From: Dyella terrae
GTDB lineage: Bacteria > Pseudomonadota > Gammaproteobacteria > Xanthomonadales > Rhodanobacteraceae
Reading direction: 5' to 3'
Assembly: GCF_022394535.1 (NCBI RefSeq)
Contig: NZ_CP089414.1
Coordinates: 186,001-250,000 of the forward strand
DNA: 64,000 nucleotides
Part shown: positions 7,596 through 52,797 of the stretch, piece by piece
Numbering within the stretch: the first letter of the stretch is position 1
How the letters are laid out: each line of letters opens with the position of its first letter
Program-made: the position numbers and the translations under genes
The notes under the pieces: model-generated
The model's input: only the letters and a program-made list of their open reading frames with translations
Databases searched by the model: none
Told to the model about the DNA's origin: nothing

Positions 7596-7979
7596 GCCTA
7601 CAGAGGGGAGCGACAGGGCTCAGGCCGCCGCCATTCGTATTGCGTTGCTCTAGATGAGAACCATGTCGCATTTTTTGCGTTGGTGAAGATATGGGCAAAG
7701 GCTCAATGGAAGATCTGGCGCTCCGACGCGCGGAGCGTGATAGGGCGTGTGGCACCCATTGCACGTAGGCATCTTGGCGTGGCGAGTTGAACGCGTGAAA
7801 GCAGGTTAAATCATTGATATGTAAATGAACGGGGCGGACCGCCAAGCTCTATGTAAGTGGGACGCGGGGCTGCCATCCACAGTCCTGCAAAAAATCCATC
7901 GTTTTACGGGACTTTCCTCAGCATCGTCTGCGTAAGGGAGCGCTCGCGTGCATGGTAGGATGCGAGTCTTTCCGTCATG
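7596..7979. other. Intergenic region between gspD and the split tRNA-Leu
   Basis: 384 nt without a convincing gene. A 7-bp hairpin (CGCTCCG/CGGAGCG, 7719-7737) is present but has no T-run, so it is a weak terminator candidate for the T2SS operon. The last 60 nt must hold the promoter of the original tRNA-Leu gene. A -10-like TAGGAT lies at 7956-7961, 18 nt before the tRNA, but no good -35 box is visible. Confidence 0.5.
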
Positions 7980-8020
7980 GCCCGGATGGCGAAACTGGTA
8001 GACGCAAGGGACTTAAAATC
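7980..8020 (+). pseudogene. 5' half of the chromosomal tRNA-Leu(UAA), truncated by the ICE
   Basis: The sequence from 7980 has the tRNA-Leu acceptor strand GCCCGGA, a D arm (GGCGAAACTGGTAGACGC) and the anticodon stem start AGGGA followed by CTTAAAA, i.e. anticodon TAA. After 8020 the sequence turns to AGTTTTGTC and cannot close the anticodon stem, which needs TCCCT. The missing part is at 52743-52797. As it stands this copy cannot fold into a tRNA. Confidence 0.95.
8012..8020 (+). repeat. attL core of the ICE
   Basis: CTTAAAATC, the anticodon loop plus the start of the 3' anticodon stem of tRNA-Leu(UAA). It is repeated exactly at 52743-52751. The flanking bases differ (A...A on the left, G...C on the right), so the shared core is exactly 9 bp. 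Anticodon-loop crossover is an established target class for tyrosine integrases. Confidence 0.93.
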
Positions 8021-8178
8021 AGTTTTGTCAAGTCCTCGTCTCTCACGAGGCGCATGCGGGAAGCCAATAGGGACAACAATTTGCGTCCTTCTCGACGCGT
8101 GCTTCGTCGCGTTCCTCAGCGACTAGGAGCCAACTAGGAGCTGAGGAAAGTGGTGTAAGGTTTGACGTTCCACGTCAT
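8021..8178. promoter_or_regulatory. ICE left-end region with repeats, probable integrase/excisionase arm sites
   Basis: 158 nt between the crossover site and the element's own tRNA gene. It holds a perfect 9-bp inverted repeat TTCCTCAGC (8112-8120)/GCTGAGGAA (8140-8148). Within its loop is a tandem copy of ACTAGGAGC (8122-8130 and 8133-8141). Short repeats next to an integrase core are the usual look of arm-type sites, but no protein data support this. No good promoter for the following tRNA is visible; TAAGGT at 8156-8161 could be a weak -10. Confidence 0.45.
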
Positions 8179-8491
8179 GCCCGAGTGGTGAAATTGGTAG
8201 ACACAAGGGACTTAGACAATTTGAGCCCTCCGGGGGAAACCCCAGAGGTGAAGCCCGTCAAAGTCGGCGAAAGCCCTGGATGCTTCGGCAACCGAGTCAA
8301 CGCCGAGCCAAGCCCAAGCCCCACGGCTGGGAAGGTGTAGAGAGCAGACGGCGGGCACCTACGGCTGCAAGGCTATGGTGAAGGCGTGCTCCAGACCACG
8401 AACAGCAAATACGCTGGCGGCGAAAGTCGAAGTGGTAAGAAAATCCCTCGACCTCACGGTCATGCCGGTTCGATTCCGGCCTCGGGCACCA
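8179..8491 (+). tRNA. tRNA-Leu(UAA) carried by the ICE, interrupted by a group I intron
   Basis: Exon 1 is 8179-8213 and exon 2 is 8440-8491, giving an 87-nt mature tRNA. The acceptor arm GCCCGAG (8179-8185) pairs perfectly with CTCGGGC (8481-8487), followed by A and an encoded CCA. The D arm is GGTGAAATTGGTAGACAC. Splicing restores AGGGA-CUUAAAA-UCCCU, an anticodon stem-loop with anticodon UAA. A class II variable arm (GACC/GGTC) and a T arm (GCCGG-TTCGATT-CCGGC) complete it. It differs in sequence from the chromosomal tRNA it replaces. It lies inside the ICE, 159 nt from the crossover site. The intron splits the very anticodon-loop sequence used by the integrase. Confidence 0.95.
8214..8439 (+). 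ncRNA. Group I self-splicing intron in tRNA-Leu(UAA)
   Basis: 226 nt, inserted after U34 of the anticodon. The 5' exon ends in U (8213) and the intron ends in G (8439), as group I introns require. P1 forms between exon CUU (8211-8213) and intron GAG (8223-8225), giving the U-G wobble at the splice site. The P7 guanosine-binding helix is GAGCA (8342-8346) with TGCTC (8387-8391). Core blocks CGGCGAAA, GCCGAGCCAAGC, GGTGTAGAGA, CAGACGG, GCTATGGTGAAGGC and GGCGAAAGTC match, from memory, the Azoarcus tRNA-Ile ribozyme of subgroup IC3. P7 covaries relative to it. No endonuclease gene fits inside, so the intron is not itself a homing element. Confidence 0.92.
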
Positions 8492-8498
8492 ATTCGGA

Positions 8499-8530
8499 AG
8501 CCGCCTCTGTTCACGCAGAGGCGGCTTTTT
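8499..8530. terminator. Rho-independent terminator after the ICE tRNA-Leu
   Basis: An 11-bp stem AGCCGCCTCTG (8499-8509)/CAGAGGCGGCT (8516-8526) with a TTCACG loop and a T-run to 8530. It terminates the tRNA transcript on the + strand. It also overlaps the stop codon of duf2274 at the end of the trb operon on the - strand. Confidence 0.85.
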
Positions 8531-8753
8531 CGTTCCTGCTTTGTACGCGCTTGAATCCCCGATCAGCGGCCATGAACGCCTCCAGCATGTGCGGGATCAA
8601 TACCGTGGCATCGACCGCCTCGCCGTAGGTCTGCGCGTGCAGCGCGGCATAGCGGTCGAGGTCAGATTTCAAGTTGGCTGGACACGCGAAGGTCAGCTTG
8701 ATGCTCTCGGTTCGGGGCAGCGGCCCGAGACGCAGCTTGAGCGTCGTACTCAT
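8511..8753 (-). CDS. DUF2274 family protein, last gene of the trb operon
   Basis: 80 residues: MSTTLKLRLGPLPRTESIKL, then a ribbon-helix-helix-like segment (ACPANLKSDLDRYAALHAQ). It matches the DUF2274 proteins that follow trbI in Tn4371-type ICEs; the function is unknown, perhaps a small DNA-binding regulator. The start overlaps the trbI stop (ATGA), and the stop lies in the terminator shared with the tRNA. Confidence 0.8.
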   Translation of the reverse strand: MSTTLKLRLGPLPRTESIKLTFACPANLKSDLDRYAALHAQTYGEAVDATVLIPHMLEAFMAADRGFKRVQSRNEKAASA

Positions 8754-10060
8754 TGCGAACTCCCCCGCTGGAAGAACAGCGGCTGGTAGGGCCGCAGCAC
8801 CATGTCCTTGTTCACCATCACCTCCACCGGGAGACCAGGCCGCGCCGTCAGTGTCGGCTGCACGCTCAGGTTGCGGCGCGTGATTTCCTGGCCAACCTGA
8901 TTGGCCGTGTCCTGCGCGCTGTCGCGCAGCGCAAGGACCGTGTTGCCGTTGTTGAGGTTGCCCTGATTCGACATCGCCATCTCGGAGCTGACGCCCAGCA
9001 GCGTGGACAGGACCGCGCCGGCCAGGATGCGGCCCCAGTGCCAGTCCACGCCGTCTTCGAGGCCCGCGTAGCCGGCCGGGTCGATGCCGGGCAGCTTGTC
9101 GAGCGCGATCGATGAGGCATCGGGCAGCACCAGACGCAACCAGACCAGCAGCATGCGCCGCTGCCCGAACGCCACCTGGCTGTCGTAGCGTCCGATCAGC
9201 CGCGAGCCTTGCGGAATCAGCAGATAACGTCCGGTCGCGGTGTCGTACACCGGCTGCGTCACCTCGGCGATGACCTGCCCCGGCAGGTCGGAATTGATGC
9301 CCGTCACCAGCGCGGCCGGGATGACCGTGCCCGCCATCACGGTGTACGGCGAGGCCGGTGTCTGCAAGGTGCCGCCGTTGCGCGTGGCGTTATCGCCGCC
9401 CATGGCCATGAACGCTTCCTTCTGGCCCTGCCGGTTCTGCACTGCCGTCGGATCGGTGGGCTGCGCCACCGTCGAGGCCGGGCCAGCGGCCTGTGGATCG
9501 AAGGCCGCCAGATTGCTCGCCGGCGGAGTGGCCGCTGATGTCGCTGGCGCAACCGCGGCATGCTGGCCACCCGTCTGATTGCTGGTATGGAAGAACACCG
9601 ATGACCCGGCGGCGGTTTCGGCTTCCTTGCGCAGCGCGTCGCGCTCGGCGGCTTCCGGGTCTTGCCCGGGCGATGTGTTGGCCAACGGCGGTGGCTGCTG
9701 CGACTGGACGATGGCCGGCCCCAGGTCGCCCGGCAGCGGCGGCCCCAGCGTCGGCACGCTGACCGCCGGCTTGGGCGGCAAGCCGGAATAATCTTTCGGA
9801 AGCTGGTCGAGTTCTTCGGAGCGCGCCACGCGATCGACGTTGTAAAGCTCGGTCGCCGTGTTGCCGGCGTGGCGATGGGGCTGCAACGACCAGAAGGTGG
9901 CCCCGATCACGGCCACGCCCAGGCCGCCAGTCAAGAACGCCAGCGTGCGCCGGTTCAGTCGCGTCACCGGACGCGGCTGCGAGCGCAGCGTCATGCTCTC
10001 CGGCGCGACCTTCGGAGCAGCGTTAGGCATGGAGGCGTCCGGGGTGTCGTCCTGGCTCAT
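8750..10060 (-). CDS. trbI: TrbI, VirB10-like channel protein of the conjugation machinery
   Basis: 436 residues: a cytoplasmic N-terminus, one membrane helix near residues 39-58 (LAFLTGGLGVAVIGATFW), a Pro-rich periplasmic linker, and a VirB10/TrbI beta-barrel domain (VMAGTVIPAALVTGINSDLP, then LIPQGSRLIGRYDSQVAFGQ). VirB10-type proteins span both membranes and join the inner complex to the outer pore. It starts 2 nt after the trbG stop in a head-to-tail operon. Confidence 0.95.
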   Translation of the reverse strand: MSQDDTPDASMPNAAPKVAPESMTLRSQPRPVTRLNRRTLAFLTGGLGVAVIGATFWSLQPHRHAGNTATELYNVDRVARSEELDQLPKDYSGLPPKPAVSVPTLGPPLPGDLGPAIVQSQQPPPLANTSPGQDPEAAERDALRKEAETAAGSSVFFHTSNQTGGQHAAVAPATSAATPPASNLAAFDPQAAGPASTVAQPTDPTAVQNRQGQKEAFMAMGGDNATRNGGTLQTPASPYTVMAGTVIPAALVTGINSDLPGQVIAEVTQPVYDTATGRYLLIPQGSRLIGRYDSQVAFGQRRMLLVWLRLVLPDASSIALDKLPGIDPAGYAGLEDGVDWHWGRILAGAVLSTLLGVSSEMAMSNQGNLNNGNTVLALRDSAQDTANQVGQEITRRNLSVQPTLTARPGLPVEVMVNKDMVLRPYQPLFFQRGSSQ

Positions 10061-13451: not shown

Positions 13452-14192
13452 TCAGTTGCCGTAGAAGTTCACGGATTGCGGCGTGTACGGCGTGCCGGTG
13501 CCAAGGAAGCGTTGCGTGATGACGCGGCCTTGTTCGACGGCGGCGGCCTGCCGCGCCAGTTCCAGCGCCGCCGCGCGGCCTTGCGTGAGCTGGAGCTGCT
13601 GCGACTCGCTGGTCTGCTTTGCCTGCAAGGCGAGAAGCTGGTTGGTCGCCTGCATGGCCTGCAAGGCGCCGGTGGCCGACTGGCTCTGGCCCACGAGGTC
13701 GGACATGACGCCTGCATCGGCGGTGACGTTCTGCGACACCTGCGCCTGCATCTGCATCGTGGTCTGCAAGCCATTGAGCGTGTTCTGCCAGCGCTGGTGC
13801 GCATCCTGGTACATCTGATTGCCGCTCACGGTCGCGGCGTACTGCTGCGGATACAGCTGCGCGAACTGCTGGTTCATGCTCTGCACCTGGAAGGCCAGCC
13901 CCTGTGCCTGCGCAATGAGCTGCTGGGTATTCGCCAGGTTCGTGCGCAACTGGTTGACCACGTTGAACGGCAGGCTCGCCAGGTTGCGCGACTGATTCAT
14001 CAACGACTGCGCTTCGTTCTGGAGCTGCCGAATCTGGTTATTGATCTGCTCCAGCGTGCGCGCGGCGGTCATCGTGTTCTGCACGAGGTTGGTCGGGTCG
14101 ATGACGACCCACTGCGCCTGTGCGGTGGATGCGACGCCCAGCAATCCGGCGACAGCGAAGGCGAATGAGAGGGAGCGAAGGCGGATCGTCAT
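13452..14192 (-). CDS. trbJ: TrbJ, VirB5-like pilus-associated protein
   Basis: 246 residues. The ATG at 14192 overlaps the trbE stop, follows GGAGA and gives a clean Sec signal (LSFAFAVAGLLGVASTAQAQ). The mature part is almost wholly alpha-helical and Gln-rich (LEQINNQIRQLQNEAQSLMN), as in TrbJ/VirB5. The protein sits at the pilus tip or base. The frame is open upstream, but that stretch lies inside trbE. Confidence 0.93.
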   Translation of the reverse strand: MTIRLRSLSFAFAVAGLLGVASTAQAQWVVIDPTNLVQNTMTAARTLEQINNQIRQLQNEAQSLMNQSRNLASLPFNVVNQLRTNLANTQQLIAQAQGLAFQVQSMNQQFAQLYPQQYAATVSGNQMYQDAHQRWQNTLNGLQTTMQMQAQVSQNVTADAGVMSDLVGQSQSATGALQAMQATNQLLALQAKQTSESQQLQLTQGRAAALELARQAAAVEQGRVITQRFLGTGTPYTPQSVNFYGN

Positions 14193-16651
14193 GGCGAGTT
14201 CTCCAGCGGTGGGGAAGCGAGGAAGGACGCGGCCAATGGCGTCCGCCTTGGAAAGTCGGGCAGCAGGTCGGCCGCCCAGTCGAGGCCGCGATGGCGCAAC
14301 CACGCGCCGGCGAAACCGGGTGTGCCGGTCTGCGCCGGCACGCGGTCAATGTCTCGCTGGTCTTGCGGTGTAGATGCGCCCGCGAAGGCGAGCGTGACCG
14401 GCCCCAGGTCGAGGTCGAACAGGCGGTTGCCAGCTCTGGATTGGTAGTAGTAATCGCGCTTGGGCTGCGCGGTGGCGACGATCTCGATCTGGCGGCTGTT
14501 CAGCCCGAAGCCTTCGTAGATCGTGCGAATCTGCGGCTCGGTTGCCTGCGGGTTCGGCAGGAAGATGCGGCTGGCGCAGCTTTCGATGATCGCGGGCGCG
14601 ATGCTCGAATCCTTGATGTCCGCGAGCGACTGCGTGGCGAAGATGACGCTGACGTTTTTCTTGCGCAGCGTCTTGAGCCATTGCCGGATGCGCGCGGCGA
14701 ACACCGGGTCATCGAGAAAGAGCCACGATTCGTCGAGGATCAAGAGCGTCGGCGCGCCATCGAATCGCTCGTCGAAACGCGCGAAGAGATACCCCAGCAC
14801 GGCCAGCACCGCCGCCTTGCTGTGCATCAGTTCTTCCATCTCGAAGCACTGCACGTCGGCCGCACCGAGCCGGTCGTGATCGGCGTCCAGCAGCTTGCCG
14901 TGCGCGCCACCGAGCACATAGGGCGCGAGCGCCTGGCGCAGCGCATTGGACTGGAGCAGCACCGACAGGCCCGTGAGCGTGCGCTGCTCGACCGGCGCGC
15001 CAGCAAGACTGCCGAGTGCCGACCAGATGGCCACCTTCTCGTCCGGGCCAACGGCGACACCTTCATGCGCCAGGCGGCCCTCGACCCATTCGGCGGCCCA
15101 GGTGCGGTAGCTGTCCTGATCGATGCGTGCGAGCGGCTGGAACGCAATCGCGCCATCGGCGCCGAGGTCGTAGTATTCGCCGCCCAGGCCCAGCGCCGTC
15201 GCCCGCATCGAGCGGCCCATGTCGAACGCGAAGATGCGCGAGCCGGGATAGCGGCGAAACTGCATCGCCAGTGTGGCGAGCAGCACCGACTTGCCCATGC
15301 CGGTCGGCCCGACGACGAGGGTATGGCCCACGTCGCCGATGTGCGTCACGAGTCGGAACGGCGTCGCGCCCTCGGTACGGGTAACGATCAAGGGCGGGCC
15401 GTCGAGATGGTCGTTCTTCTCCGGCCCGGCCCACACCGCCGACACCGGCATCAGATGCGCGAGATTCAGCGTCGAGACAATGGGCAGGCGTACGTTCGCA
15501 TAGGCATGGCCCGGCACCGACGACAGCCACGCCTCCACGGCATTGAGCGTTTCGGGGATGGTGACGAAGCCTCGGCCCTGGATGGCGCGTTCCACCTGGC
15601 GCAACTTTTCGTCGGCCACGGCCGCGTCGGCATCGAACACCGTCACGGTGGCCGTGACGTAGCCATAGGCGACCTGATCGCTGCCCAGCTCCTGCATCGC
15701 GACATCGGCATCGGCTGCCTTGTTGCTCGCGTCGGCATCGACCAGCGGCGATTCCTGCTGGAAGATCGTTTCGCGCAGCAGTGCGATGACGTTCTTGCGC
15801 TTGGCGAACCATTGCCGGCGCAGGCGGCCGAGTTCCTTCTCGGCCTCGGCCTTGTCCATGCAGAGAAAGCGCGTGCTCCAGCGATAGGCAAAGCCCAGCC
15901 GGTTGAGGTCGTCGAGAATCCCTGGCCAGGTCGAGGTCGGAAAACCCCGCACCGTCACGACACGAAGATGCTGGTCGCCCAGCATCGGCGCGAGGCCGCC
16001 GATAAGCGGCGCGTCAGCCAGTAGCGCGTCGAGATGGAACGGCACCTCCGGCACGCCGACGCGGTAGCGCCGCGTCGAGATGGTGGCGTGCAGGTACGTG
16101 AGCGTTTCGCTGTCGTCGAGCCAGTCGATTTCCGGCATTACGCCGTCGAGCAGATCGAACACCCGGTCGGTTTCCGCGACGAAGGCGGCGAGCCGTTCGC
16201 GCCAATCCACGCCGCGGGTCGCGGTGTTTTCGTAGAGCAGCTTGGCCGCGCGGGCACGGGACTCCTCCGGCGGCAGGTAGGCGAACGTGACGTGATAGCC
16301 GCTCTCGAAGTGGTTGCCCGATTCCTCGAAGGTCGCACGCCGTTCCTCGTCCACGAGCCAGGACAGCGGTTCGGGGAAATCCGATGGCGGATAGTGCGCG
16401 GCGGGTCGACGTTCGGCTTCGATGAACAGTGCCCAGCCGGCGCCGAGCCGGCGCAGCGCATTGTTCAAGCGCGCGGACGTGGCGATCAGCTCACCTTGCG
16501 TGGCGCTGTCCAGGTCTGGTCCGCGAAAGCGCGCCGTGCGCTGGAACGAACCATCCTTGTTCAGCACGACGCCGGGTGCGACGAGGCCCGCCCAGGGCAG
16601 CCAGTCGGCGAGCAGCGCCGGACGCTGGCGATATTCGGCGAGGTTCAGCAT
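14189..16651 (-). CDS. trbE: TrbE, VirB4-type ATPase of the mating channel
   Basis: 820 residues. It starts MLNLAEYRQRPALLADWLPW at the ATG after a GAGGGAC site. It has a CagE/TrbE/VirB domain and a C-terminal ATPase domain with Walker A (VVGPTGMGKSVLLA) and Walker B (PTLLILDESWLFLDD), followed by the KTLRKKNVSVIFATQSLADI segment. VirB4 ATPases power assembly of the channel at the inner membrane. The upstream part of the open frame lies inside trbD and is excluded. Confidence 0.96.
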   Translation of the reverse strand: MLNLAEYRQRPALLADWLPWAGLVAPGVVLNKDGSFQRTARFRGPDLDSATQGELIATSARLNNALRRLGAGWALFIEAERRPAAHYPPSDFPEPLSWLVDEERRATFEESGNHFESGYHVTFAYLPPEESRARAAKLLYENTATRGVDWRERLAAFVAETDRVFDLLDGVMPEIDWLDDSETLTYLHATISTRRYRVGVPEVPFHLDALLADAPLIGGLAPMLGDQHLRVVTVRGFPTSTWPGILDDLNRLGFAYRWSTRFLCMDKAEAEKELGRLRRQWFAKRKNVIALLRETIFQQESPLVDADASNKAADADVAMQELGSDQVAYGYVTATVTVFDADAAVADEKLRQVERAIQGRGFVTIPETLNAVEAWLSSVPGHAYANVRLPIVSTLNLAHLMPVSAVWAGPEKNDHLDGPPLIVTRTEGATPFRLVTHIGDVGHTLVVGPTGMGKSVLLATLAMQFRRYPGSRIFAFDMGRSMRATALGLGGEYYDLGADGAIAFQPLARIDQDSYRTWAAEWVEGRLAHEGVAVGPDEKVAIWSALGSLAGAPVEQRTLTGLSVLLQSNALRQALAPYVLGGAHGKLLDADHDRLGAADVQCFEMEELMHSKAAVLAVLGYLFARFDERFDGAPTLLILDESWLFLDDPVFAARIRQWLKTLRKKNVSVIFATQSLADIKDSSIAPAIIESCASRIFLPNPQATEPQIRTIYEGFGLNSRQIEIVATAQPKRDYYYQSRAGNRLFDLDLGPVTLAFAGASTPQDQRDIDRVPAQTGTPGFAGAWLRHRGLDWAADLLPDFPRRTPLAASFLASPPLENSP

Positions 16652-16661
16652 GGGCCGTCCC

Positions 16662-16931
16662 TCACACGTCCAGCAGCGGCTTGTGCCGCAGGTGTTTGGC
16701 GAACACCTGCATGAACTGCGGATCGGCGCGCGCGCCCCACACCGCCAGCGAATGGCCAACGATCCAGAGCGCGAGGCCGGGAAGCCAGAGTTGCAGACCC
16801 AGGCCCACGGCGGCGGCCAGCGTGCCGTTGGCGATCGCCACGGTGCGCGGCGCGCCGCCCAGCAGGATCGGCTCGGTCAGCGAGCGATGCAGCGGCACCT
16901 CGAAGCCCGGTAGCGTGTCGGCCGTGTTCAT
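16662..16931 (-). CDS. trbD: TrbD, VirB3-like inner-membrane conjugation protein
   Basis: 89 residues with two close membrane segments (TVAIANGTLAAAVGLGLQLW and LPGLALWIVGHSLAVWGAR), the usual VirB3/TrbD shape. The ATG at 16931 overlaps the trbC stop (ATGA). The frame is open far upstream, but that part belongs to trbC and trbB. It works next to TrbE. Confidence 0.92.
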   Translation of the reverse strand: MNTADTLPGFEVPLHRSLTEPILLGGAPRTVAIANGTLAAAVGLGLQLWLPGLALWIVGHSLAVWGARADPQFMQVFAKHLRHKPLLDV

Positions 16932-18333: not shown

Positions 18334-18794
18334 GAGGCACGCTCCTGCACCTCGGCCAGCGCCGCCGCATCGTCCAACCGCGTGGTGTCAGGGTTCAGCT
18401 CCTCCACCACGTCGCGTACCAGGCTGCGCCCGCGCAGCAAATGGCGGCCGAGTTGTTCGACGAACTGCTCGAATCGCGCCTTGCCTTGCGCGCGGGCCGC
18501 TTCCTGATGCGCTTCGGGAACCGGCGTGCTGACCGTCAGGTAGTAGCGGACGAACAGCGCCAGCGTCTCGATCTCGATGTTCTGGTCACGCTCCAGCTTC
18601 TCGAACTGGCGCGACAGCCGATCCAACCGCTTGGCGATGGCCGCCTCGCGCTGGTCGCCGGCATCCGGTGATAGCCACGACGCCAGCGCCGCCGCGACGA
18701 TGGACGACTTCGATACGCCTTTCTTCGCAGCCAGCTCGTCGAGCCGTTTGGCGTGTTCAGGCGAAATGAACAGATTGAGGCGGTACTGGCTCAT
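18330..18794 (-). CDS. CopG/ribbon-helix-helix protein between traG and trbB
   Basis: 154 residues. The N-terminus MSQYRLNLFISPEHAKRLDE, with KGVSKSSIVAAALASWLSPD, is a ribbon-helix-helix fold. A long helical part follows (LDRLSRQFEKLERDQNIEIE). A CopG-type gene in this place is standard in Tn4371-like ICEs; it is presumed to regulate the traG-trb operon, but this has not been shown. Both ends overlap neighbours by 4 nt, so it is translationally coupled. Confidence 0.85.
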   Translation of the reverse strand: MSQYRLNLFISPEHAKRLDELAAKKGVSKSSIVAAALASWLSPDAGDQREAAIAKRLDRLSRQFEKLERDQNIEIETLALFVRYYLTVSTPVPEAHQEAARAQGKARFEQFVEQLGRHLLRGRSLVRDVVEELNPDTTRLDDAAALAEVQERAS

Positions 18795-20791
18795 AGCTGG
18801 AGTCCGTCGTCGGGGTCGAGGGAGGCCAGCCGGGTCGTGCGCTGCATGGCCGGATCGAACTGGCGAGGAAGCGGCAGCGGCAGGTCGTCGTCATCGAGCA
18901 GCGCCAGGTCGTTGGCGGTCGGTGTCGGCTCTGGGTGGTATTCGGCGACTTCGGATAGCTCCGGCTGCCGGCGGGGGCCGCCGTCGTCGGCAGTAGCCGC
19001 GAATCCCTCGGCCGCTTCGGTGGCAGGCGCGGCCGGTACGACAGGAATTGCCAGCGCGCTCCAGTCGTCGGGCCGCAGCGGTGGCGCATCGGCGTAGGGG
19101 CCTGACGCGAGCGCGGGTGGCGGTAGCACGCGCCGCTTGAAGTTGGCGTCGGCGTAATAGCGCAGCTTCTTCGCCTTGATCGGCGCTACGCTGGAAACCA
19201 TCACCACGGCCTCATCGGGCGGGAGCTGCATCACTTCGCCGGGCGTGAGCAGCGGGCGCGCCGTCTCCTGCCGCGACACCATCAGGTGCCCGAGCCAAGG
19301 AGAAAGTCGATGGCCCGCGTAGTTGCGCTGCGCGCGCAATTCGGTCGCAGTGCCCAGCGTTTCGGAAATGCGCTTGGCGGTGCGTTCGTCGTTGGTGGCG
19401 AATGTCATGCGCACATGGCAGTTGTCGAGGATGGAATGGTTCTGGCCGTAGGCTTTGTCGATCTGGTTGAGCGACTGCGCGATGAGGAAGCTGCGGATGC
19501 CGTAGCCAGCCATGAACGCGAGCGCCGTCTCGAAAAAATCGAGCCGGCCGAGTGCCGGAAACTCGTCGAGCATCAAGAGCAGCTTGTGACGGCGCGCGAT
19601 ACCGTCGCTGCCGTCGAGCGATTCGGCCAGGCGCCGTCCGATCTGGTTGAGAATCAGGCGCACCAGCGGTTTGGTGCGGCTGATGTCGGACGGTGGCACG
19701 ACGAGGTATAGCGAGATCGGATGTTCGGCGGAGATGAGATCCGCGATACGCCAGTCGCAACGCGAGGTGACTTCGGCCACGGTCGGGTCGCGGTACAGGC
19801 CGAGAAACGACATGGCCGTGGACAGCACGCCCGAGCGTTCGTTATCCGATTTGTTCAATACCTCGCGCGCGGCAGAAGCGACGACGGGATGCGGGACATT
19901 CCCCAGGTGCCGCGTCGTCATCATCCGGTGCAGCGTCAGCTCGAACGGGCACGCGGGATCGGAGAGGAAATTGGCTACTCCGCGCAGCGTCTTGTCCTCA
20001 CCTGCGTAGAGCACGTGCAGGATGGCGCCGACCAGCAACGCGTGCGACGTTTTCTCCCAATGGTTACGGCGTTCCAACGCGCCTTCGGGATCGACGAGTA
20101 TGTCGGCGATGTTCTGTACGTCGCGCACTTCATGCGCGCCACGCCGCACTTCCAGCAGCGGGTTGTATGCGGCCGACTTCGCATCGGTGGGGTTGAACAG
20201 CAGGCAGTGCGAGAAGCGCGAGCGCCAACCCGCGGTAATGCTCCAGTTCTCGCCCTTGATGTCGTGGATGACGGCCGACGCGGGCCAGCTCAGGAGCGTG
20301 GGAATGACCAGGCCCACGCCCTTGCCGGAGCGCGTGGGCGCGAACGTCAGGACGTGTTCCGGGCCTTCATGGCGCAGGTACTGTCGTTCATGCAGACCGA
20401 GAAACACGCCGACCGGCTGATCGAGGCCGGCCTTGTGAATGTCGTCGGCGTTGGCCCAGCGCGCCGAGCCGTAGGTCGTGACACGCTTGGTCTGCCGCGA
20501 GCGCCAGACCGACATGGCGATCGCGACCAGCACCGCGACGAGACCACTGCCGCCCGCGATCACGCCGCCCTTGTCGAAGACGCGGGGCGCATAGCCGTCG
20601 TAGAGGAACCACCACTCGAACAGCCGCCAGGGGTGATAGACCGGCGTGTTGAGAAAATCAAACCAGGGCGGGCCAAGGCGTAGCTGATAGCCCAGGGCGG
20701 CGGCTGTCCATTGTGTGGCTGTCCACACGCCGGCGATCACGATGCCGAAAACGACGGCAATCTGCCCGAATAGCACGCCTTGACTCTGCAT
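18791..20791 (-). CDS. traG: TraG, VirD4-type coupling protein
   Basis: 666 residues. Two N-terminal membrane helices (LFGQIAVVFGIVIAGVWTAT and LVAVLVAIAMSVW) precede the cytoplasmic ATPase with Walker A (TFAPTRSGKGVGLVIPTLLS) and Walker B (LLLMLDEFPALGRL). It links the relaxase-DNA complex to the channel. The ATG at 20791 follows GGAGG. It is the first gene of the traG-copG-trb operon, so the operon promoter should lie at about 20800-20950. Confidence 0.96.
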   Translation of the reverse strand: MQSQGVLFGQIAVVFGIVIAGVWTATQWTAAALGYQLRLGPPWFDFLNTPVYHPWRLFEWWFLYDGYAPRVFDKGGVIAGGSGLVAVLVAIAMSVWRSRQTKRVTTYGSARWANADDIHKAGLDQPVGVFLGLHERQYLRHEGPEHVLTFAPTRSGKGVGLVIPTLLSWPASAVIHDIKGENWSITAGWRSRFSHCLLFNPTDAKSAAYNPLLEVRRGAHEVRDVQNIADILVDPEGALERRNHWEKTSHALLVGAILHVLYAGEDKTLRGVANFLSDPACPFELTLHRMMTTRHLGNVPHPVVASAAREVLNKSDNERSGVLSTAMSFLGLYRDPTVAEVTSRCDWRIADLISAEHPISLYLVVPPSDISRTKPLVRLILNQIGRRLAESLDGSDGIARRHKLLLMLDEFPALGRLDFFETALAFMAGYGIRSFLIAQSLNQIDKAYGQNHSILDNCHVRMTFATNDERTAKRISETLGTATELRAQRNYAGHRLSPWLGHLMVSRQETARPLLTPGEVMQLPPDEAVVMVSSVAPIKAKKLRYYADANFKRRVLPPPALASGPYADAPPLRPDDWSALAIPVVPAAPATEAAEGFAATADDGGPRRQPELSEVAEYHPEPTPTANDLALLDDDDLPLPLPRQFDPAMQRTTRLASLDPDDGLQL

Positions 20792-21197
20792 GTCGGCCTC
20801 CGTTTTCTCCTGTGCAATTCGCGGCACATGCACGTGCCGCACACGGGAGGATCGGAGTCAGGTCAAGGGTCGGTCAAAGACCATTATCGGAAGAAATATC
20901 GAGAAAAAAGCAAGGATTCACGCAGGGGCGAACGCAAGAAAAACGCCGCAAGCGAAGGCGCATTGCGGCGTAAAAAGGGAAAAACAGGAAAATCATTGAT
21001 CGATAGCTAAGGATGCTCTGATCTATTCAGTGCATCCTGAAGTCCACCGCCGGACCGCAGCGGCCGATCTATCCGGAGATCCGAACCAAGCAAACTTGCC
21101 CGTCTTTGCGCGCGCCCTGTCCGATCTTGCCAAGTATTGCTTTAGATATGCTTACGATATATCTTTACGTCACTCTCACGATATATCGAAATCTCTC
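20792..21197. promoter_or_regulatory. Divergent control region between traG and the padR gene
   Basis: About 400 nt without a gene. The part next to traG is purine-rich on the + strand and contains a hairpin CGCCGCAA (20944-20951)/TTGCGGCG (20963-20970). The part next to the padR gene becomes AT-rich and holds two CGATATATC copies listed separately. It must carry the promoters of the transfer operon (leftwards) and the metal cluster (rightwards). Confidence 0.5.
21154..21188 (+). promoter_or_regulatory. Probable PadR/YqjI operator, two CGATATATC palindromes
   Basis: ACGATATATC occurs at 21154-21163 and again at 21178-21187. The second copy is within the perfect palindrome CGATATATCG (21179-21188). 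The copies are 24 bp apart, about two helical turns, and end 9 nt before the ATG of the PadR-like gene. This suits autoregulation by a dimeric PadR repressor; binding is inferred. Confidence 0.65.
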
Positions 21198-24025: not shown

Positions 24026-24853
24026 TTATCGGCGCGCAGCAGATAGGTCGTGAGCTTGGGGGGAGATTCCGGCCAGTGGGCGTGCGATCACACCGCGTTC
24101 GCGACTTGCCGTGAACTGCGAGGCGCCCGCTAGGCCCAATGCGCAGCCCGCTGCCACCATCGCCATCATCAGATTGATAGTGGCTACGCGCCCGGCAACC
24201 AAGGGCTCTCTATCGGCATGCCGCAGCAGACGATCAATCTGCCGCACGTAGCCTTCACACGCATGGGGATCGCCCAGCACCAGCGGATAGCGCAGCATTT
24301 CTTCCAGCGGGATGCGTTTGTACGACAGCAACGGATGGCGGTCGGGAACCGCCACCATCAGCGGATCGCTCCAGGCTGGCTCCGCGATGATGCCGTCGCC
24401 AACCTCATCGGCGCGTGCGAATCCCAAGTCGTAGGTGTCGTCCAGCAGCCCCTTGATCTGCTGCGACAGGGGCACTTCGGACAGACGGATTTCGATGTCC
24501 GGCTCGTCTTGGCGGCATCGCGCCAAAAGCGCTGAAAAGCGCGTAGGCGTGATGCCGTCCGACAAGGCGATGCGCAACTGACCGTGGAAACCATTGGCTG
24601 CGGCTTTAATGCTATCGCGGGCCTGCTGCAAGGCGGTGAAGACGCGCTGCGCATGCTCCCTGAACATGCGCCCTGCACGGGTCAGTCGGGTGCTGCGCGA
24701 GGTACGTGCAAACAGCAGCACGCCCAGTTCTTCTTCCAGTTCCTTGATGGCGCGCGACAACGGCGACTGCTCGATGTGCAGTCGTTCGGCTGCGCGGGCG
24801 AAGTGGAGTTCTTCGGCGACGGCAAGAAAGCAGCGTAAGTGTCGAAGCTCCAT
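24026..24853 (-). CDS. LysR-family regulator, frameshifted near its C-terminus
   Basis: 275 residues as read. The N-terminal helix-turn-helix is intact (MELRHLRCFLAVAEELHFAR, LHIEQSPLSRAIKELEEELG). The effector domain runs to ERGVIARPLAGIS. There a run of six C (24058-24063, - strand) shifts the frame and gives PQAHDLSAARR. With five C the frame continues PKLTTYLLRADNEASEILAR and ends VPEETES at 23926, overlapping the eexN start by ATGA, which is clearly the original gene. The start follows GGAGGAG. It probably controls nearby transfer or exclusion genes; no target is known. Confidence 0.82.
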   Translation of the reverse strand: MELRHLRCFLAVAEELHFARAAERLHIEQSPLSRAIKELEEELGVLLFARTSRSTRLTRAGRMFREHAQRVFTALQQARDSIKAAANGFHGQLRIALSDGITPTRFSALLARCRQDEPDIEIRLSEVPLSQQIKGLLDDTYDLGFARADEVGDGIIAEPAWSDPLMVAVPDRHPLLSYKRIPLEEMLRYPLVLGDPHACEGYVRQIDRLLRHADREPLVAGRVATINLMMAMVAAGCALGLAGASQFTASRERGVIARPLAGISPQAHDLSAARR

Positions 24854-26527: not shown

Positions 26528-28513
26528 TCACCCAGGGCCTAACTGGCGCTGTCGCCCCATATCCCAAGATATCCCACCGCTTCGCACCGTCGCAGCGATT
26601 TGCTGCCCTAGCCGCTGCTCGATCACCGGCCTCCACGGCACCAGGCTAAACCCCATGCCATCGTCAAGCATGGCGTATCGCCCACTGGCAAGCATGACGC
26701 TGCGGCGGTAGATGCCGGCCACGCGCTGGCCATCGGCCACGGGCCGATGCTCCAGGCCAGTTTCGGCGGCAATTTCCTTCCCGACCTGCGCCAGATCCCG
26801 ATTGCGCAGTGTGCCCAACAGGTTTCGCGCCAGCATCACGCGCTGGCCGCGCCGCTCTGCCAACCCCTGTTCGGCCAGGAAATCGGAGCGCTTTTGGAGC
26901 GCGTCTTTGACCTCGCTGCCAAACCCCAGATCGCCGAGCCCTCGGCCACTTCCAATCAGTTGCTGGTCGAGCCATGTAGCGCCGATCACTCGGGCCTGCC
27001 GCTCTATGGGCAGGTGCGATTTCAACTCCACGACCACGCCACCCAAGCGCTGCGCGTCATACTGGCGGCCTTTCTCCAGCAGGTCGTCCGGCACCTTCCA
27101 CAACCCTTCGGCGACGCGCTCCACGATACCGGCGCGGCGTAAGGCTTCCAGCCGGCGGACATGGGCCGCGACGACTTCATGCGGGTCGCGGCTTGCCTGC
27201 GCCTGTCCCTGTGCGACCGCTAGGTGATGATCCGTGCGGTACAAGCCGTCACTCGCCAGCGCGGTGATGTTGCGGTCAGCGGTCCGCAGTTCCGCGTAAC
27301 CGCGCACCTCCACCACCGATCCCATGGGGTAGTTCCCGGGTTCATCGCGGGCATTGAGCGCAACATAGTGGGCCTTACCGTCCACGCCGTCGATGACCAG
27401 ATAACCCCGGTCGCGCAGCTCATCGGCCAGTCCTTTCGCAGCTATGCGCCCGACGACTGTGCGGCCATTGTCGCCTGGCTCGAACACTGCCAGCTCGCGC
27501 GGCTGGCCGCTCATGGCCCGCTGCATGGTACGGATGATGTCGCCACGCTCGCCCAGGGCGCGCAAGGTCTTCTCGGCATCAGCATGGACGGCCCAGGTGC
27601 CGGGCTGCACCTCGTCGGCCAGATCCATGCGCTGCAAGCGTTGCAACCGCCCAATCAGCAGCAGGCGCTGGCGTTGCAATCGGGATTCGTTGAAGCGCTC
27701 GATCTGCACACGGCCATCGTCGTCTACCTCGCGTTGCAAGGTGCGATCAAGGCTCGTCCATCGCTCCTGTTCCACCTCGCGTTGCAAGGTTTGCTGGATC
27801 TCCCGTTCGGTGCGCGGCCCCAGCCATTCAGTCGCCAGCTCGGCGGCCCGGTGGCGGAAACCCTGGGCGATGTAGTCGCCCGCGATGATGAGGTCTTTGC
27901 CGGTGTCGTCGCGCCCGCGCACGACGATATGCGTGTGCGGGTTGTCCGTATTCCAGTGATCGACCGCCACCCACTCCAGCCGTGTGCCCAGGTCGGCCTC
28001 CATACGTTCCATCAGGTGCCGGGTGTACGTGCGCAGGTCTTCCAACTCGGCGCCGTCCTCGGACGAGAGGATGAAGCGGAAATGGTGCCGGTCGTCCGCG
28101 CAGTGCTCCTTGAAGGCACCGAGGTCGGCTTCGTCGGTCTGTGGGCCATAGGCGCGGCCCGGCTCGCCCTCTCGGCCCACGCCGTCACGCTCGATGTAGC
28201 GCAGGTGCTTGGCAAGCGACTGCGGGCTGGCGTGGCGCTGGTTGACCAGCAAGGTCTTGATGATCACGCGCCGCGAGAACGGCGTCAGCTTCGCACCTGC
28301 GAAGCGCGCTGCCGTATGGCCGCGCCCCAGGCGCGAGCCGGGCCGCTGGCCGGTACGCTGGCCCTTGCCGCCGACCATGACAGGACGGTGCAGTGCCGAC
28401 TTGCCTGCGCTGGCCTTGCCAGTCTGCTTGAGCACCCTGGAAACGAAGCCCTGGCCCCGGTGTTTCGGCGCGCCGGGACGCACGCGGAAATCGTCATCGT
28501 CGCGCTGGCTCAT
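26528..28513 (-). CDS. traI: TraI-like relaxase (VirD2-type, DUF3363)
   Basis: 661 residues. The N-terminal relaxase domain ends with the metal-binding motif DNPHTHIVVRG (residues 190-200), preceded by FRFILSSEDGAELEDLRTYT. The large C-terminal part, from about residue 230, is the DUF3363 domain typical of Tn4371-like ICEs. It should nick oriT and pilot the single strand through TraG and the Trb channel. Catalytic Tyr candidates lie near Y107 (KHLRYIERDG). The start is followed by a strongly basic stretch. Upstream lies the non-coding region where oriT is most likely. Confidence 0.93.
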   Translation of the reverse strand: MSQRDDDDFRVRPGAPKHRGQGFVSRVLKQTGKASAGKSALHRPVMVGGKGQRTGQRPGSRLGRGHTAARFAGAKLTPFSRRVIIKTLLVNQRHASPQSLAKHLRYIERDGVGREGEPGRAYGPQTDEADLGAFKEHCADDRHHFRFILSSEDGAELEDLRTYTRHLMERMEADLGTRLEWVAVDHWNTDNPHTHIVVRGRDDTGKDLIIAGDYIAQGFRHRAAELATEWLGPRTEREIQQTLQREVEQERWTSLDRTLQREVDDDGRVQIERFNESRLQRQRLLLIGRLQRLQRMDLADEVQPGTWAVHADAEKTLRALGERGDIIRTMQRAMSGQPRELAVFEPGDNGRTVVGRIAAKGLADELRDRGYLVIDGVDGKAHYVALNARDEPGNYPMGSVVEVRGYAELRTADRNITALASDGLYRTDHHLAVAQGQAQASRDPHEVVAAHVRRLEALRRAGIVERVAEGLWKVPDDLLEKGRQYDAQRLGGVVVELKSHLPIERQARVIGATWLDQQLIGSGRGLGDLGFGSEVKDALQKRSDFLAEQGLAERRGQRVMLARNLLGTLRNRDLAQVGKEIAAETGLEHRPVADGQRVAGIYRRSVMLASGRYAMLDDGMGFSLVPWRPVIEQRLGQQIAATVRSGGISWDMGRQRQLGPG

Positions 28514-51368: not shown

Positions 51369-52565
51369 TCATGCGGCCGCCTTTGCCTGCAGTGCGCCGA
51401 CAACCGATTTGCGGCGGTTCGCCACCAGCTCGGCGGCCTTACGCACCGGGTCGTCCTCGGTGTGAACGTAGCGCATGAACATCGCCACGGTCTTGTGCGC
51501 CGTGAGGGCCATGCCGACCTTGACCGGGATGCCGGAGTTGGCAATATCGGTCGCCGAGCGGTGGCGGATGCCGTGGGTGCCGACCTTCGGCACGCCGGCA
51601 CGATCAAGGAAGCGCCGCCACGCCTGGTAGTAGGAACCGGGACTCAGCGGCTTGCCGTGGTCCCGGATGGCGGGGCAGACGTAGGGCGAATCGCCATAGC
51701 GAGGCGCGTTTGACAGCAGTCGCTGAGCTTCTTCGCTCAAGGGCTTGGACATATTGCCGGTCTTGCTGTCCGGCCAGACCGCGCGGCCGTTGGGCAGGTC
51801 AAGCCAATCCCACTGCAACAGCAAGACCTCCGACATGCGTGCGGCGAACTCGAATTGCAGCCGGACGGCCAGCAGGTAGATCGGATGCTCCAGATGCTCG
51901 GTTTCGGCCCGGTCCATGTATGCGAACAAGCTGACCATCTGTTCGTCGGTGATGAGCCGGGTCGAGCCTTTCTCGGGGTACTTGGGTACATGGCGGCAGG
52001 GATTCGTGCCGTCGGGCCGGTAGCCCCACAACTCGGCCAGGTTGAACATCTTGCGAACGCAGGACAGCACGCGGTTGGCCTGAGTGGGTGACTTCTCCAG
52101 GCGCTTCATCAGCGCGGTGATGTCCTGACGGGTGACTTCGTGGGCCTTCTTGCTGCCGAATGCAGAGATGATGTAGCAGTCGATCTGGTACTGATACGAC
52201 TTCTGTGTGCTCGGCTTGTTGTGCAGCTTGGAATGATCCTCCATGAACCGGGTGCAAAGCTCCTTGATCGTCGGCGCCTTGCGTGCCTCGGTTTTCTGAT
52301 TTCCCGGATCGCCCCCGCGCCGAACTTCTGCCAGCCAGTCCTGAGCCAGCGACCGCGCTTGTTCGACGGTCAGCTCACCGAACTGGCCGAGCGCCGGCTT
52401 GCGGCGCACGCCTGAGTTCGTACGGTACTGCAGCATGAAGACCTTGCGGCCGGTTGGTGTAACCTTGCACAAGAAGCCTGGAACAACGGTGTCCCGGAGT
52501 TCGACGTCTTGCGATTGCGGTCGCGCCGTATCGACCACGGTTTTCGTCAGTTTGATCTTTGCCAT
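51369..52565 (-). CDS. int: Tyrosine integrase of the ICE
   Basis: 398 residues. The N-terminal DUF4102-type arm-binding domain (GFLCKVTPTGRKVFMLQYRT) and the core-binding SAM-like domain (TIKELCTRFMEDHSKLHNKP) precede the catalytic domain with the full set: R243 (FAARMSEVLLLQW), K268 (DSKTGN), H331-x-x-R334 (THGIRHRSATD), H357 (TAHKTVAM) and Y366 (FMRYVH). It lies at the right end, 178 nt from the attR core and directed away from it, the usual arrangement for tRNA-targeting integrases. Target: anticodon loop of tRNA-Leu(UAA). Confidence 0.95.
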   Translation of the reverse strand: MAKIKLTKTVVDTARPQSQDVELRDTVVPGFLCKVTPTGRKVFMLQYRTNSGVRRKPALGQFGELTVEQARSLAQDWLAEVRRGGDPGNQKTEARKAPTIKELCTRFMEDHSKLHNKPSTQKSYQYQIDCYIISAFGSKKAHEVTRQDITALMKRLEKSPTQANRVLSCVRKMFNLAELWGYRPDGTNPCRHVPKYPEKGSTRLITDEQMVSLFAYMDRAETEHLEHPIYLLAVRLQFEFAARMSEVLLLQWDWLDLPNGRAVWPDSKTGNMSKPLSEEAQRLLSNAPRYGDSPYVCPAIRDHGKPLSPGSYYQAWRRFLDRAGVPKVGTHGIRHRSATDIANSGIPVKVGMALTAHKTVAMFMRYVHTEDDPVRKAAELVANRRKSVVGALQAKAAA

Positions 52566-52742
52566 GAGGTGCTCCTGAAAATCCACCGATTTCCAGGAGC
52601 CGGCCAAGAGCCAAGCGAAAGGGAACCGGGGCGGTTTGCATCGCGCACCGGGATATGATCCAAGGCATTGACCTAAAGGAAAACCTGCTACAGCAAGCTG
52701 TATCCAAGCCTAGAGGTGCCCGGTGCAGGATTCATGCTGTCG
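52566..52742. promoter_or_regulatory. Right-end attachment region with int promoter
   Basis: 177 nt between int and the attR core, with no gene. A short palindrome TACAGC (52689-52694)/GCTGTA (52697-52702) lies about 45 bp from the core, a likely protein-binding arm site. In the circular form this region joins 8021 onward to form attP. Confidence 0.5.
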
Positions 52743-52797
52743 CTTAAAATCCCTCAGCCGAAAGGCTATGCGGGTTCGACCCCCGCTCCGGGCACCA
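52743..52797 (+). pseudogene. 3' half of the chromosomal tRNA-Leu(UAA), with attR core
   Basis: CTTAAAATC (52743-52751) begins the half and is the attR core. Then come the anticodon stem TCCCT, variable arm (AGCC-GAAA-GGCT), T arm (GCGGG-TTCGACC-CCCGC), acceptor strand TCCGGGC (52787-52793), A73 and CCA. It pairs exactly with the 5' half at 7980-7986. Alone it lacks the acceptor 5' strand and D arm, so it makes no tRNA. Confidence 0.95.

Follow-up and report, generated by a model that had tools for sequence, protein, structure and literature searches.

An element of the Tn4371 type in Dyella terrae severs the host tRNA-Leu(UAA) gene and carries an intron-split tRNA-Leu(UAA): a probable replacement gene, possibly shielded from the integrase by its intron

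The stretch of DNA analysed here, referred to as the window, comprises 64,000 nucleotides of the genome of Dyella terrae, which is assembled as a single contig of 5.36 Mb (99.97% complete). It contains an integrated element of 44.7 kb, an integrative and conjugative element (ICE) resembling Tn4371, which is inserted in the host gene for tRNA-Leu(UAA). The left junction, attL, holds the 5′ half of this gene (7980..8020, plus strand; read directly), which ends in ...GGGACTTAAAATC, so that the cut falls after the anticodon loop. The complementary 3′ half is found at the right junction, attR (52743..52797, plus strand; also read directly), which consists of CTTAAAATC and the 3′ half of the host gene, CTTAAAATCCCTC...GGGCACCA. 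The 9-bp repeat CTTAAAATC is present at both junctions, the attL copy lying at 8012-8020. An earlier reading of this DNA, made without database searches (here the sequence-only reading), had described a native gene severed in the anticodon loop with both halves incomplete, and its coordinates are right to the base.

The element has a tRNA gene of its own. Some 160 bp inside its left end, and oriented as the severed host gene, lies a complete gene for tRNA-Leu(UAA) (8179..8491, plus strand), interrupted between U34 and A35 by a 226-nt group I intron (8214..8439, plus strand; ...GACTT/AGAC...TAAG/AAAAT..., with slashes at the splice sites). ARAGORN, when introns are allowed, places the intron after nucleotide 35 of the ICE gene, with CTT before it and AAAA behind it; once joined, the exons form a clean 87-nt cloverleaf. 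Without the intron option, the same program calls no tRNA anywhere in the window, neither half of the host gene included, and it overlooked all four of the split genes given to it, namely that of the window, those at loci L163 and L164 (the latter from Bordetella ansorpii) and that of the phage Daredevil.

At gathering thresholds, Rfam reports nothing in the window. Its group I model scores the window intron at 34.7 bits (E 4.2e-7), which is under the gathering score of 50; the L164 intron also falls below it (26 bits), and that of L163 passes (54.7 bits). The group I class is retained despite the low score because of covariation in an alignment of 32 sequences, made up of the window, 18 distinct ICE copies, other mobile or orphan copies and genes without a visible element; L164 is in the same alignment. 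The scored structure was drawn on the window's sequence and counts 12 pairs of the tRNA's own arms. It is paired in 94.7% of cells, with two-sided changes at 42 of 66 pairs, and none of 500 shuffles reaches any of five measures of structure, which rules out a chance match as the explanation of the intron. The P3/P4/P6/P7/P8 core that marks a group I intron is present with covariation, the pseudoknotted P7 being paired in 99.4% of cells and P3 in 96.0%. Group I introns occur at the same place in cyanobacterial tRNA-Leu(UAA) genes, and also in tRNA genes of Azoarcus and Agrobacterium. The sequence-only reading had proposed a complete ICE gene at 8179-8491 split by a group I intron, and both ARAGORN with introns and the covariation bear this out.

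The left end of the ICE, between the core and the tRNA gene (8021..8178, plus strand), contains a conserved TTTTGTCAAG adjoining the core, and paired AGGAGCC-like direct repeats, both identified by alignment. The repeats are putative integrase arm sites, and similar ones can be seen by eye near the integrase end. Right behind the ICE tRNA gene there is a terminator-like feature, a GC-rich hairpin followed by a T run (8496..8530, plus strand; by eye), and a similar hairpin was seen by eye behind most ICE copies of the gene. A consensus promoter and terminator scan of 7850-8560 did not have this hairpin among the features listed, and gave no promoter, not even that of the host tRNA gene itself. 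Being blind to the host gene's promoter, the scan is uninformative on how the ICE tRNA is transcribed.

The remaining genes are those of a conjugative element, all on the minus strand: a DUF2274 protein (8511..8753), a TrbI-like conjugation protein (8750..10060), a TrbE/VirB4-like ATPase (14189..16759), a TraG-like coupling protein (18791..20842), a LysR-type regulator of the type of TraR in Tn4371 ICEs (24026..24853; PMC11448139), a relaxase with a MobA/VirD2-like nuclease domain and DUF3363 (26528..28513) and, adjoining the right end, a tyrosine integrase with Arm-DNA-bind_3 and Phage_integrase domains (51369..52607), assigned from its domains and from a tree. With its TrbI, TrbE-like, TraG-like, relaxase and integrase genes, the element deserves the label ICE that it had been given from sequence. 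The combination of tyrosine integrase, VirD2-like relaxase, TraG and trb genes is that of the Tn4371 type. The integrase is related to the terminator-targeting integrases of Tn4371 elements (attB TTTTTCAT), being 66–70% identical to 37 loci, most of which end, by eye, in a GTGAAATAAAAAA-like sequence ahead of a hairpin. In the tree the tRNA-Leu integrases form a separate side (support 100/100).

The host genome was searched for a backup of the severed gene. Rfam finds 50 tRNA matches in the genome, 48 of them above cut-off, and ARAGORN calls no tRNA at either of the other two. The leucine anticodons typed by ARAGORN are CAA, UAG, CAG and GAG, and no unsplit tRNA-Leu(UAA) is present among the ARAGORN-typed tRNA genes of the whole genome. 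A sequence pattern for the unsplit UAA gene was also used; with fixed spacing it matched none of 36 genomes, although one of them (G036) has the gene, and it was replaced by a version with variable spacing. This has no match in the D. terrae genome, and at least one match in each of 19 congeners. A backup UAA gene is ruled out by Rfam, ARAGORN typing and the pattern, and the whole-genome check for a second intact copy that the sequence-only reading had proposed therefore came out in its favour. By the rules of bacterial decoding, the UUA codon needs tRNA-Leu(UAA).

In all 19 congeners the tRNA-Leu(UAA) gene has no intron, and in 17 of them it stands alongside tRNA-Gly and tRNA-Cys within the 3-kb locus fetched. 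In D. terrae, tRNA-Gly and tRNA-Cys are 47.7 kb from the severed gene (G000:C1:146041-193980, mostly left of the window), probably owing to a further insertion or rearrangement in between. Three congeners (G420, G431 and G433) have two unsplit tRNA-Leu(UAA) matches each, at distances of 44.6, 15.1 and 9.4 kb, which is what other islands would leave behind if they entered the same tRNA gene and rebuilt it.

The arrangement is widely conserved. An integrase search covered 272 loci, of which 80 were kept; their record titles name beta-, gamma- and alphaproteobacterial hosts, and 38 of them, with 83–89% identity, make up the close-integrase set. The core is at the expected right-end place in 36 of these 38 loci and continues into a tRNA 3′ half in 35, the 36th being the Sphingobium locus L065, outside any tRNA; in the remaining two of the 38 the contig or the sequence shows no such core. 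A full-length intron-split tRNA gene (84–93% identity) is present in 30 of the 38 genomes, which rules out a lone curiosity. In 29 of the 30 it starts 165–204 bp past the first core base of a severed host tRNA-Leu(UAA) gene and in the same orientation, well within the 300 bp of the attL core suggested by the sequence-only reading. All 30 copies have GACTT on the 5′ side, a final intron G and AAAAT on the 3′ side, and so have the U before the 5′ splice site and the terminal G usual in group I introns. The exception in position is L139, a Sphingobium case: in Sphingobium phenoxybenzoativorans (L139/L195, L065) the ICE lies outside any tRNA gene, in an apparently protein-coding stretch with GGCTTAAAATCC, and still carries the intron-split gene.

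Eight of the 38 genomes lack a full match (G001, G010, G015, G024, G026, G031, G036 and G038). In seven of these the integrase contig breaks off before 43 kb, the distance between integrase and tRNA gene in the window, and in G015 it breaks off close to that point; the core of G036 is altered, to CTTGAAATC, and this genome has an unsplit native UAA gene. The unsplit-UAA pattern matches in three of the 38 genomes, G007, G036 and the metagenome-assembled genome G002, where the match is attR itself; the two ICE ends of G002 are widely separated on the chromosome, and its left end includes N. Thirteen unsplit tRNA-Leu-like genes of these genomes were typed: ten are CAA, two UAA (G007 and G036) and one is odd. 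This last gene, L201 (G010:C11), is tRNA-Leu(CAA)-like with extra loop bases (GACTCCTCAAAATC), and ARAGORN calls it tRNA-SeC. Two Cupriavidus megaplasmids match just the first 57–58% of the intron-split gene.

These observations bear on the idea that the intron is a selfish agent which homes into tRNA-Leu genes and landed in the ICE by accident. Mobility is known among group I introns, and the homologues outside ICEs include some with introns of about 690 nt and, in a large phage, one of 700 nt; however, at 226 nt the ICE intron is too short for an endonuclease gene, the genes of the 19 congeners are all intronless, and the intron is found in an additional, complete tRNA gene whose position in the ICE is constant, rather than in a resident gene. 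We consider this origin very improbable.

It is of interest that the isotype follows the target. A sister ICE of Variovorax Root473, whose genome also hosts a UAA-type ICE, has an integrase 64% identical to that of the window; it has severed a tRNA-Leu(CAA) gene, and an intron-split tRNA-Leu(CAA) gene is found 226 bp further on. A split tRNA-Leu(CAA) gene of Bordetella ansorpii (L164) has an intron of the ICE clade, and its exons match the native gene of Variovorax WDL1 and Melaminivora at 100% identity, so that only the intron would set the gene apart from a target. A severed gene was not found beside L164, where the element was not delimited. Three split tRNA-Leu(CAA) genes (L164, L198 and L214) have C in place of U before the splice site, giving a C-G pair there instead of the usual U-G wobble (alignment columns 36 and 48). 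In alphaproteobacteria, five CAA-ICEs of a single clade carry an intronless replacement. At a further locus, L189 (G041:C18), a right end is fused to the left end of an alphaproteobacterial CAA-ICE, in a manner that resembles a tandem array or a circle junction.

The switch of isotype to CAA along with the target also argues against the view that the ICE tRNA is ordinary cargo, serving the codon usage of the ICE and unrelated to the destroyed gene. Many mobile elements and phages do carry tRNAs; in 29 of 30 ICE copies, however, the tRNA is of the destroyed isotype and adjoins the junction, and the searches of the host gave no second UAA gene, which makes simple cargo extremely improbable. We regard it as highly likely that the ICE tRNA replaces the destroyed host tRNA. 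That the host is kept alive by it, as the sequence-only reading held, is strongly supported by its being the sole UAA gene found, by the pairing of severed and carried genes in 29 further genomes, and by the match of the isotype to the one destroyed.

The further claim, that the host comes to depend on the ICE, receives indirect support from remnants. In a class survey of 369 genomes, three (G413, G196 and G360) have an ICE-type intron-split tRNA gene without a severed 5′ half alongside, and in none of the three is there a match to the unsplit-UAA pattern or an integrase of the UAA clade; G196 has an integrase match of 29% identity and G360 one of 67%, and G413 has none. In G196, four pieces of the ICE are left, spanning about 1.6 kb; the tRNA is among them in full, and the integrase gene is unmatched. 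The remnant in G413 lies 4.7 kb from the tRNA-Gly/Cys cluster and consists of the tRNA gene, 43 bp before it and the terminator only. Dependence predicts remnants of this kind, in which the tRNA is kept. G053, which has an orphan split tRNA-Leu(CAA) gene, has an unsplit UAA gene, as expected.

What the integrase recognises can be narrowed down from the junctions. The left ends of L192 and L193 retain just CTTAAAA before they diverge, and the CAA elements retain CTCAAAA, which reduces the shared segment to the 7-nt anticodon loop (8012..8018, plus strand, at attL). This loop is the presumed strand-exchange (overlap) segment, and the anticodon stem would supply two inverted core arms around it. 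A 7-bp overlap would agree with the 6–8 bp normal for tyrosine integrases (PMC10865867). Since the anticodon stems differ among hosts, recognition must rest largely on the loop and one or two base pairs.

In the ICE gene, this loop is split in DNA and would be whole in the spliced RNA. CTTAAAA is absent from all 30 unspliced ICE genes, and CTTAAAATC is restored in all 30 spliced forms. The half-sites of the ICE tRNA gene are 226 bp apart in DNA, and the gene should therefore not be an attB. The window's element has one further CTTAAAA, at 45860 on the opposite strand, where the flanking bases of the tRNA are missing. A replacement tRNA needs the anticodon loop of the target in order to work; with an intron inside that loop, the element could retain a working RNA while its DNA is concealed.

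The same design is found in two elements with very distant integrases. An alphaproteobacterial element of 27.7 kb (G039) has severed a tRNA-Leu(UAA) gene, of which both halves were found, and an intron-split tRNA-Leu(UAA) gene adjoins its integrase. This tyrosine recombinase is 24% identical to the window integrase over 156 residues, with a SAM-like domain above the Pfam cut-off and the catalytic domain just below it. The G039 intron groups with a tRNA-Cys-adjacent gene of the window's class and not with the ICE clade (support 95/90).

The second element is the Gordonia phage Daredevil (NC_048021.1). BLAST with the window gene matched a stretch adjoining its integrase (75% identity over 42% of the query), where ARAGORN with introns finds an unannotated tRNA-Lys(UUU) gene (L270, 2871-3182) whose loop is interrupted, at the position seen in the ICE gene, by a group I intron of 238 nt. 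No group I match is among the Rfam matches listed at E 0.1, and the intron was identified by sequence similarity, ARAGORN and pairing: its structure pairs 51 of 63 positions, as against 14–28 when slid, and the spliced form folds well. With the putative attP of the phage, the spliced tRNA has 16 bp in common and the unspliced gene 9 bp. The Daredevil integrase is 22% identical to that of the window over 372 columns, and 28% identical to that of the alphaproteobacterial element over 71. Daredevil has been reported to integrate at tRNA-Lys-TTT without rebuilding it, to have no tRNA of its own, and to form clear plaques (PMC10865867). No tRNA is annotated at the locus of the split gene, and a search of the remaining record found none either; the split tRNA-Lys(UUU) may be the tRNA reported missing. 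Since intronless ARAGORN missed four split genes, and a phage reported to lack a tRNA may have one, the results suggest that intron-split replacement tRNAs have been overlooked. A pattern scan of IMG/VR gave a single match, which ARAGORN does not call a tRNA and which was discarded. In an uncultured phage of 595 kb (LR756511.1; L271) there is a tRNA-Leu(UAA) gene with a 700-nt intron containing a frame that seems, by eye, endonuclease-like.

On the basis of these observations, the idea put forward in the sequence-only reading, that the intron shields the gene from the integrase, stands as far as the anatomy goes: in all 30 ICE copies the core is split in the DNA and restored by splicing, and two other elements are built alike. 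That shielding is the function for which the intron was selected goes beyond this anatomy, and several findings weigh against it. Six phages with intronless replacements were picked by hand from 460 records with related integrases. In four of them, Cain, Mollymur, OneUp and Bantam, the replacement shares 11, 9, 10 and 9 bp, respectively, with the putative attP, loop included, in direct orientation and close by attP (the stretch being identical in Mollymur and Bantam), and in the other two, Wintermute and BrutonGaster, only the 7-bp loop is common to both. A shield is therefore not obligatory. Six of 30 loci examined in the window's class are split tRNA-Leu(UAA) genes beside tRNA-Cys with no element in their 1.5-kb flanks, and split genes have also been reported in Beggiatoa and Thiomargarita (PMC4853749), so that the ICE could have acquired its intron by chance. 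Because the query of the survey was the split gene, an intronless replacement would have appeared only as two short matches, and an ICE with such a gene and an unresolved left end could escape among the eight genomes without a full match. An unsplit UAA gene is kept in two of the 38 genomes, in G007 together with the ICE, and in G036, where the core of the element has changed. The loop of the intronless CAA replacements differs from the target by U32 in all five; this had been considered as a second form of shielding, but in a survey of 142 genomes 89 genomes fitted the strict pattern, 24 of them with U32, one of these being the ICE copy of G040. U32 is thus natural in 23 of 88 native genes, which makes its use merely compatible with shielding and of little support to it. 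Finally, the clear plaques of Daredevil would be odd if its split tRNA works; they would need another cause, or the gene would have to be non-working.

Some of these findings favour a different account, in which the replacement is real and the intron a neutral passenger, taken over with a captured tRNA-Leu gene of the class and carried cheaply because it splices itself. The element-free split genes beside tRNA-Cys and the four phages that keep a core of 9–11 bp are what it would expect, as is the grouping of the alphaproteobacterial intron with such an element-free gene. On the other hand, three elements share the design with integrases just 22–28% identical over their aligned parts, the intron is kept in all 30 ICE copies found (with the split gene as the query) and through a change of isotype, and it always splits the integrase core. 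A review of 2014 states that all group I introns known from phages at that time were in protein genes (PMC3984707), and against that background chance would hardly account for Daredevil. We therefore think a passenger intron rather unlikely, while giving it real weight.

We put the chance that the intron is retained because it protects the gene from the integrase at even or slightly better. A broader proposal, that self-splicing introns act as a DNA-level mask in several lineages, namely the ICE clade with its two isotypes, the alphaproteobacterial element and Daredevil, is offered tentatively, as a little less likely than that. The same tentativeness applies to its component claim, that the intron might hide the replacement DNA both from the integrase of the element itself and from copies arriving later.

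The mechanism that we propose is as follows. The integrase would recombine within the 7-bp anticodon loop of tRNA-Leu(UAA), splitting the gene without rebuilding it. As the gene is not rebuilt, the ICE would carry its own tRNA-Leu(UAA), and the host survive, but need the ICE to decode UUA for as long as the native gene has not been restored by precise excision. The host tRNA promoter is presumed to read through attL into the nearby ICE tRNA gene, which is co-directional in all 29 resolved cases, and the terminator-like hairpin would end the transcript behind it. The intron is predicted to splice itself out of the RNA, after which host enzymes would complete the tRNA. In DNA, the split loop should be unable to pair with attP in strand exchange; hence the ICE would neither delete the stretch from attP to its own tRNA gene nor offer a site to a second copy. 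Taken as a whole, a Tn4371-type ICE with a replacement tRNA and an intron that acts as a DNA shield is an explanation that we hold to be reasonably probable.

If correct, this would give a bacterial group I intron a concrete role, the RNA and DNA forms of the gene differing exactly where a recombinase reads the DNA. It would extend tRNA-dependent integration from phages to conjugative elements, explain how the ICE has spread over several proteobacterial classes despite destroying a presumably essential gene, and provide the ICE with a strong means of retention.

The sequence-only reading considered the system undescribed. This holds in part: phage replacement tRNAs have been known since 2024, a guarding role of introns at tRNA att sites has been suggested for archaea, and no paper on a group I intron in the replacement tRNA of an ICE or phage was found in the open-licence PMC literature, so that the intron-split ICE version is the part not found in print. 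Like classical islands, the ICE has a tyrosine integrase and a tRNA target, but unlike a tRNA-restoring island it has a complete tRNA at neither junction (Islander, PMC4383910). It resembles ICEKKS102Tn4677 and ICEbphKF708 (PMC11448139, PMC6563109, PMC9960961) in being of the Tn4371 type and in its att repeat; that of ICEKKS102Tn4677, GATTTTAAG (PMC11448139), is the reverse complement of CTTAAAATC. For these ICEs transfer with Pseudomonas putida KT2440 has been shown (PMC11448139, PMC6563109, PMC9960961), and tRNA-Leu has been named as the target of the family (PMC9960961). In the passages on these two elements nothing is said of a severed tRNA-Leu(UAA), of a replacement or of introns, and the word intron does not occur in the main text of PMC11448139 and PMC6563109.

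The resident genes of Beggiatoa and Thiomargarita (PMC4853749) have the same class of intron. Like the split genes of cyanobacteria, Azoarcus and Agrobacterium, they belong to the host itself and do not travel on an element that severs the host's copy. The closest idea is the proposal made for a Caldiarchaeum tRNA-Thr, in which an intron was gained from an integrating element, after the suggestion of Randau and Soll that tRNA introns block integration (PMC3293823). There too, a tRNA intron delivered by an element is proposed to stop further integration; it is, however, an archaeal intron within a rebuilt gene at one locus, whereas the ICE has a group I intron in a complete extra gene, in many genomes. 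The closest system is that of integrating actinobacteriophages, whose replacement tRNAs define tRNA-dependent lysogeny (Guerrero-Bustamante and Hatfull, mBio 2024, PMC10865867). They share with the ICE a tyrosine integrase, a tRNA gene as target, which is entered at a core of roughly 10 bp and not rebuilt, and a carried tRNA of the destroyed isotype, needed in the phages for survival; they differ in that the ICE is not a phage and the phage replacements described there are plain genes. Measured against the 2024 definition for phages, the ICE has the short shared core, lacks a functional tRNA at both junctions and carries a tRNA of the isotype that it destroys, and the destroyed tRNA was the sole one of its kind found in the host. 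In its anatomy, the ICE would be a version of tRNA-dependent lysogeny in a conjugative element.

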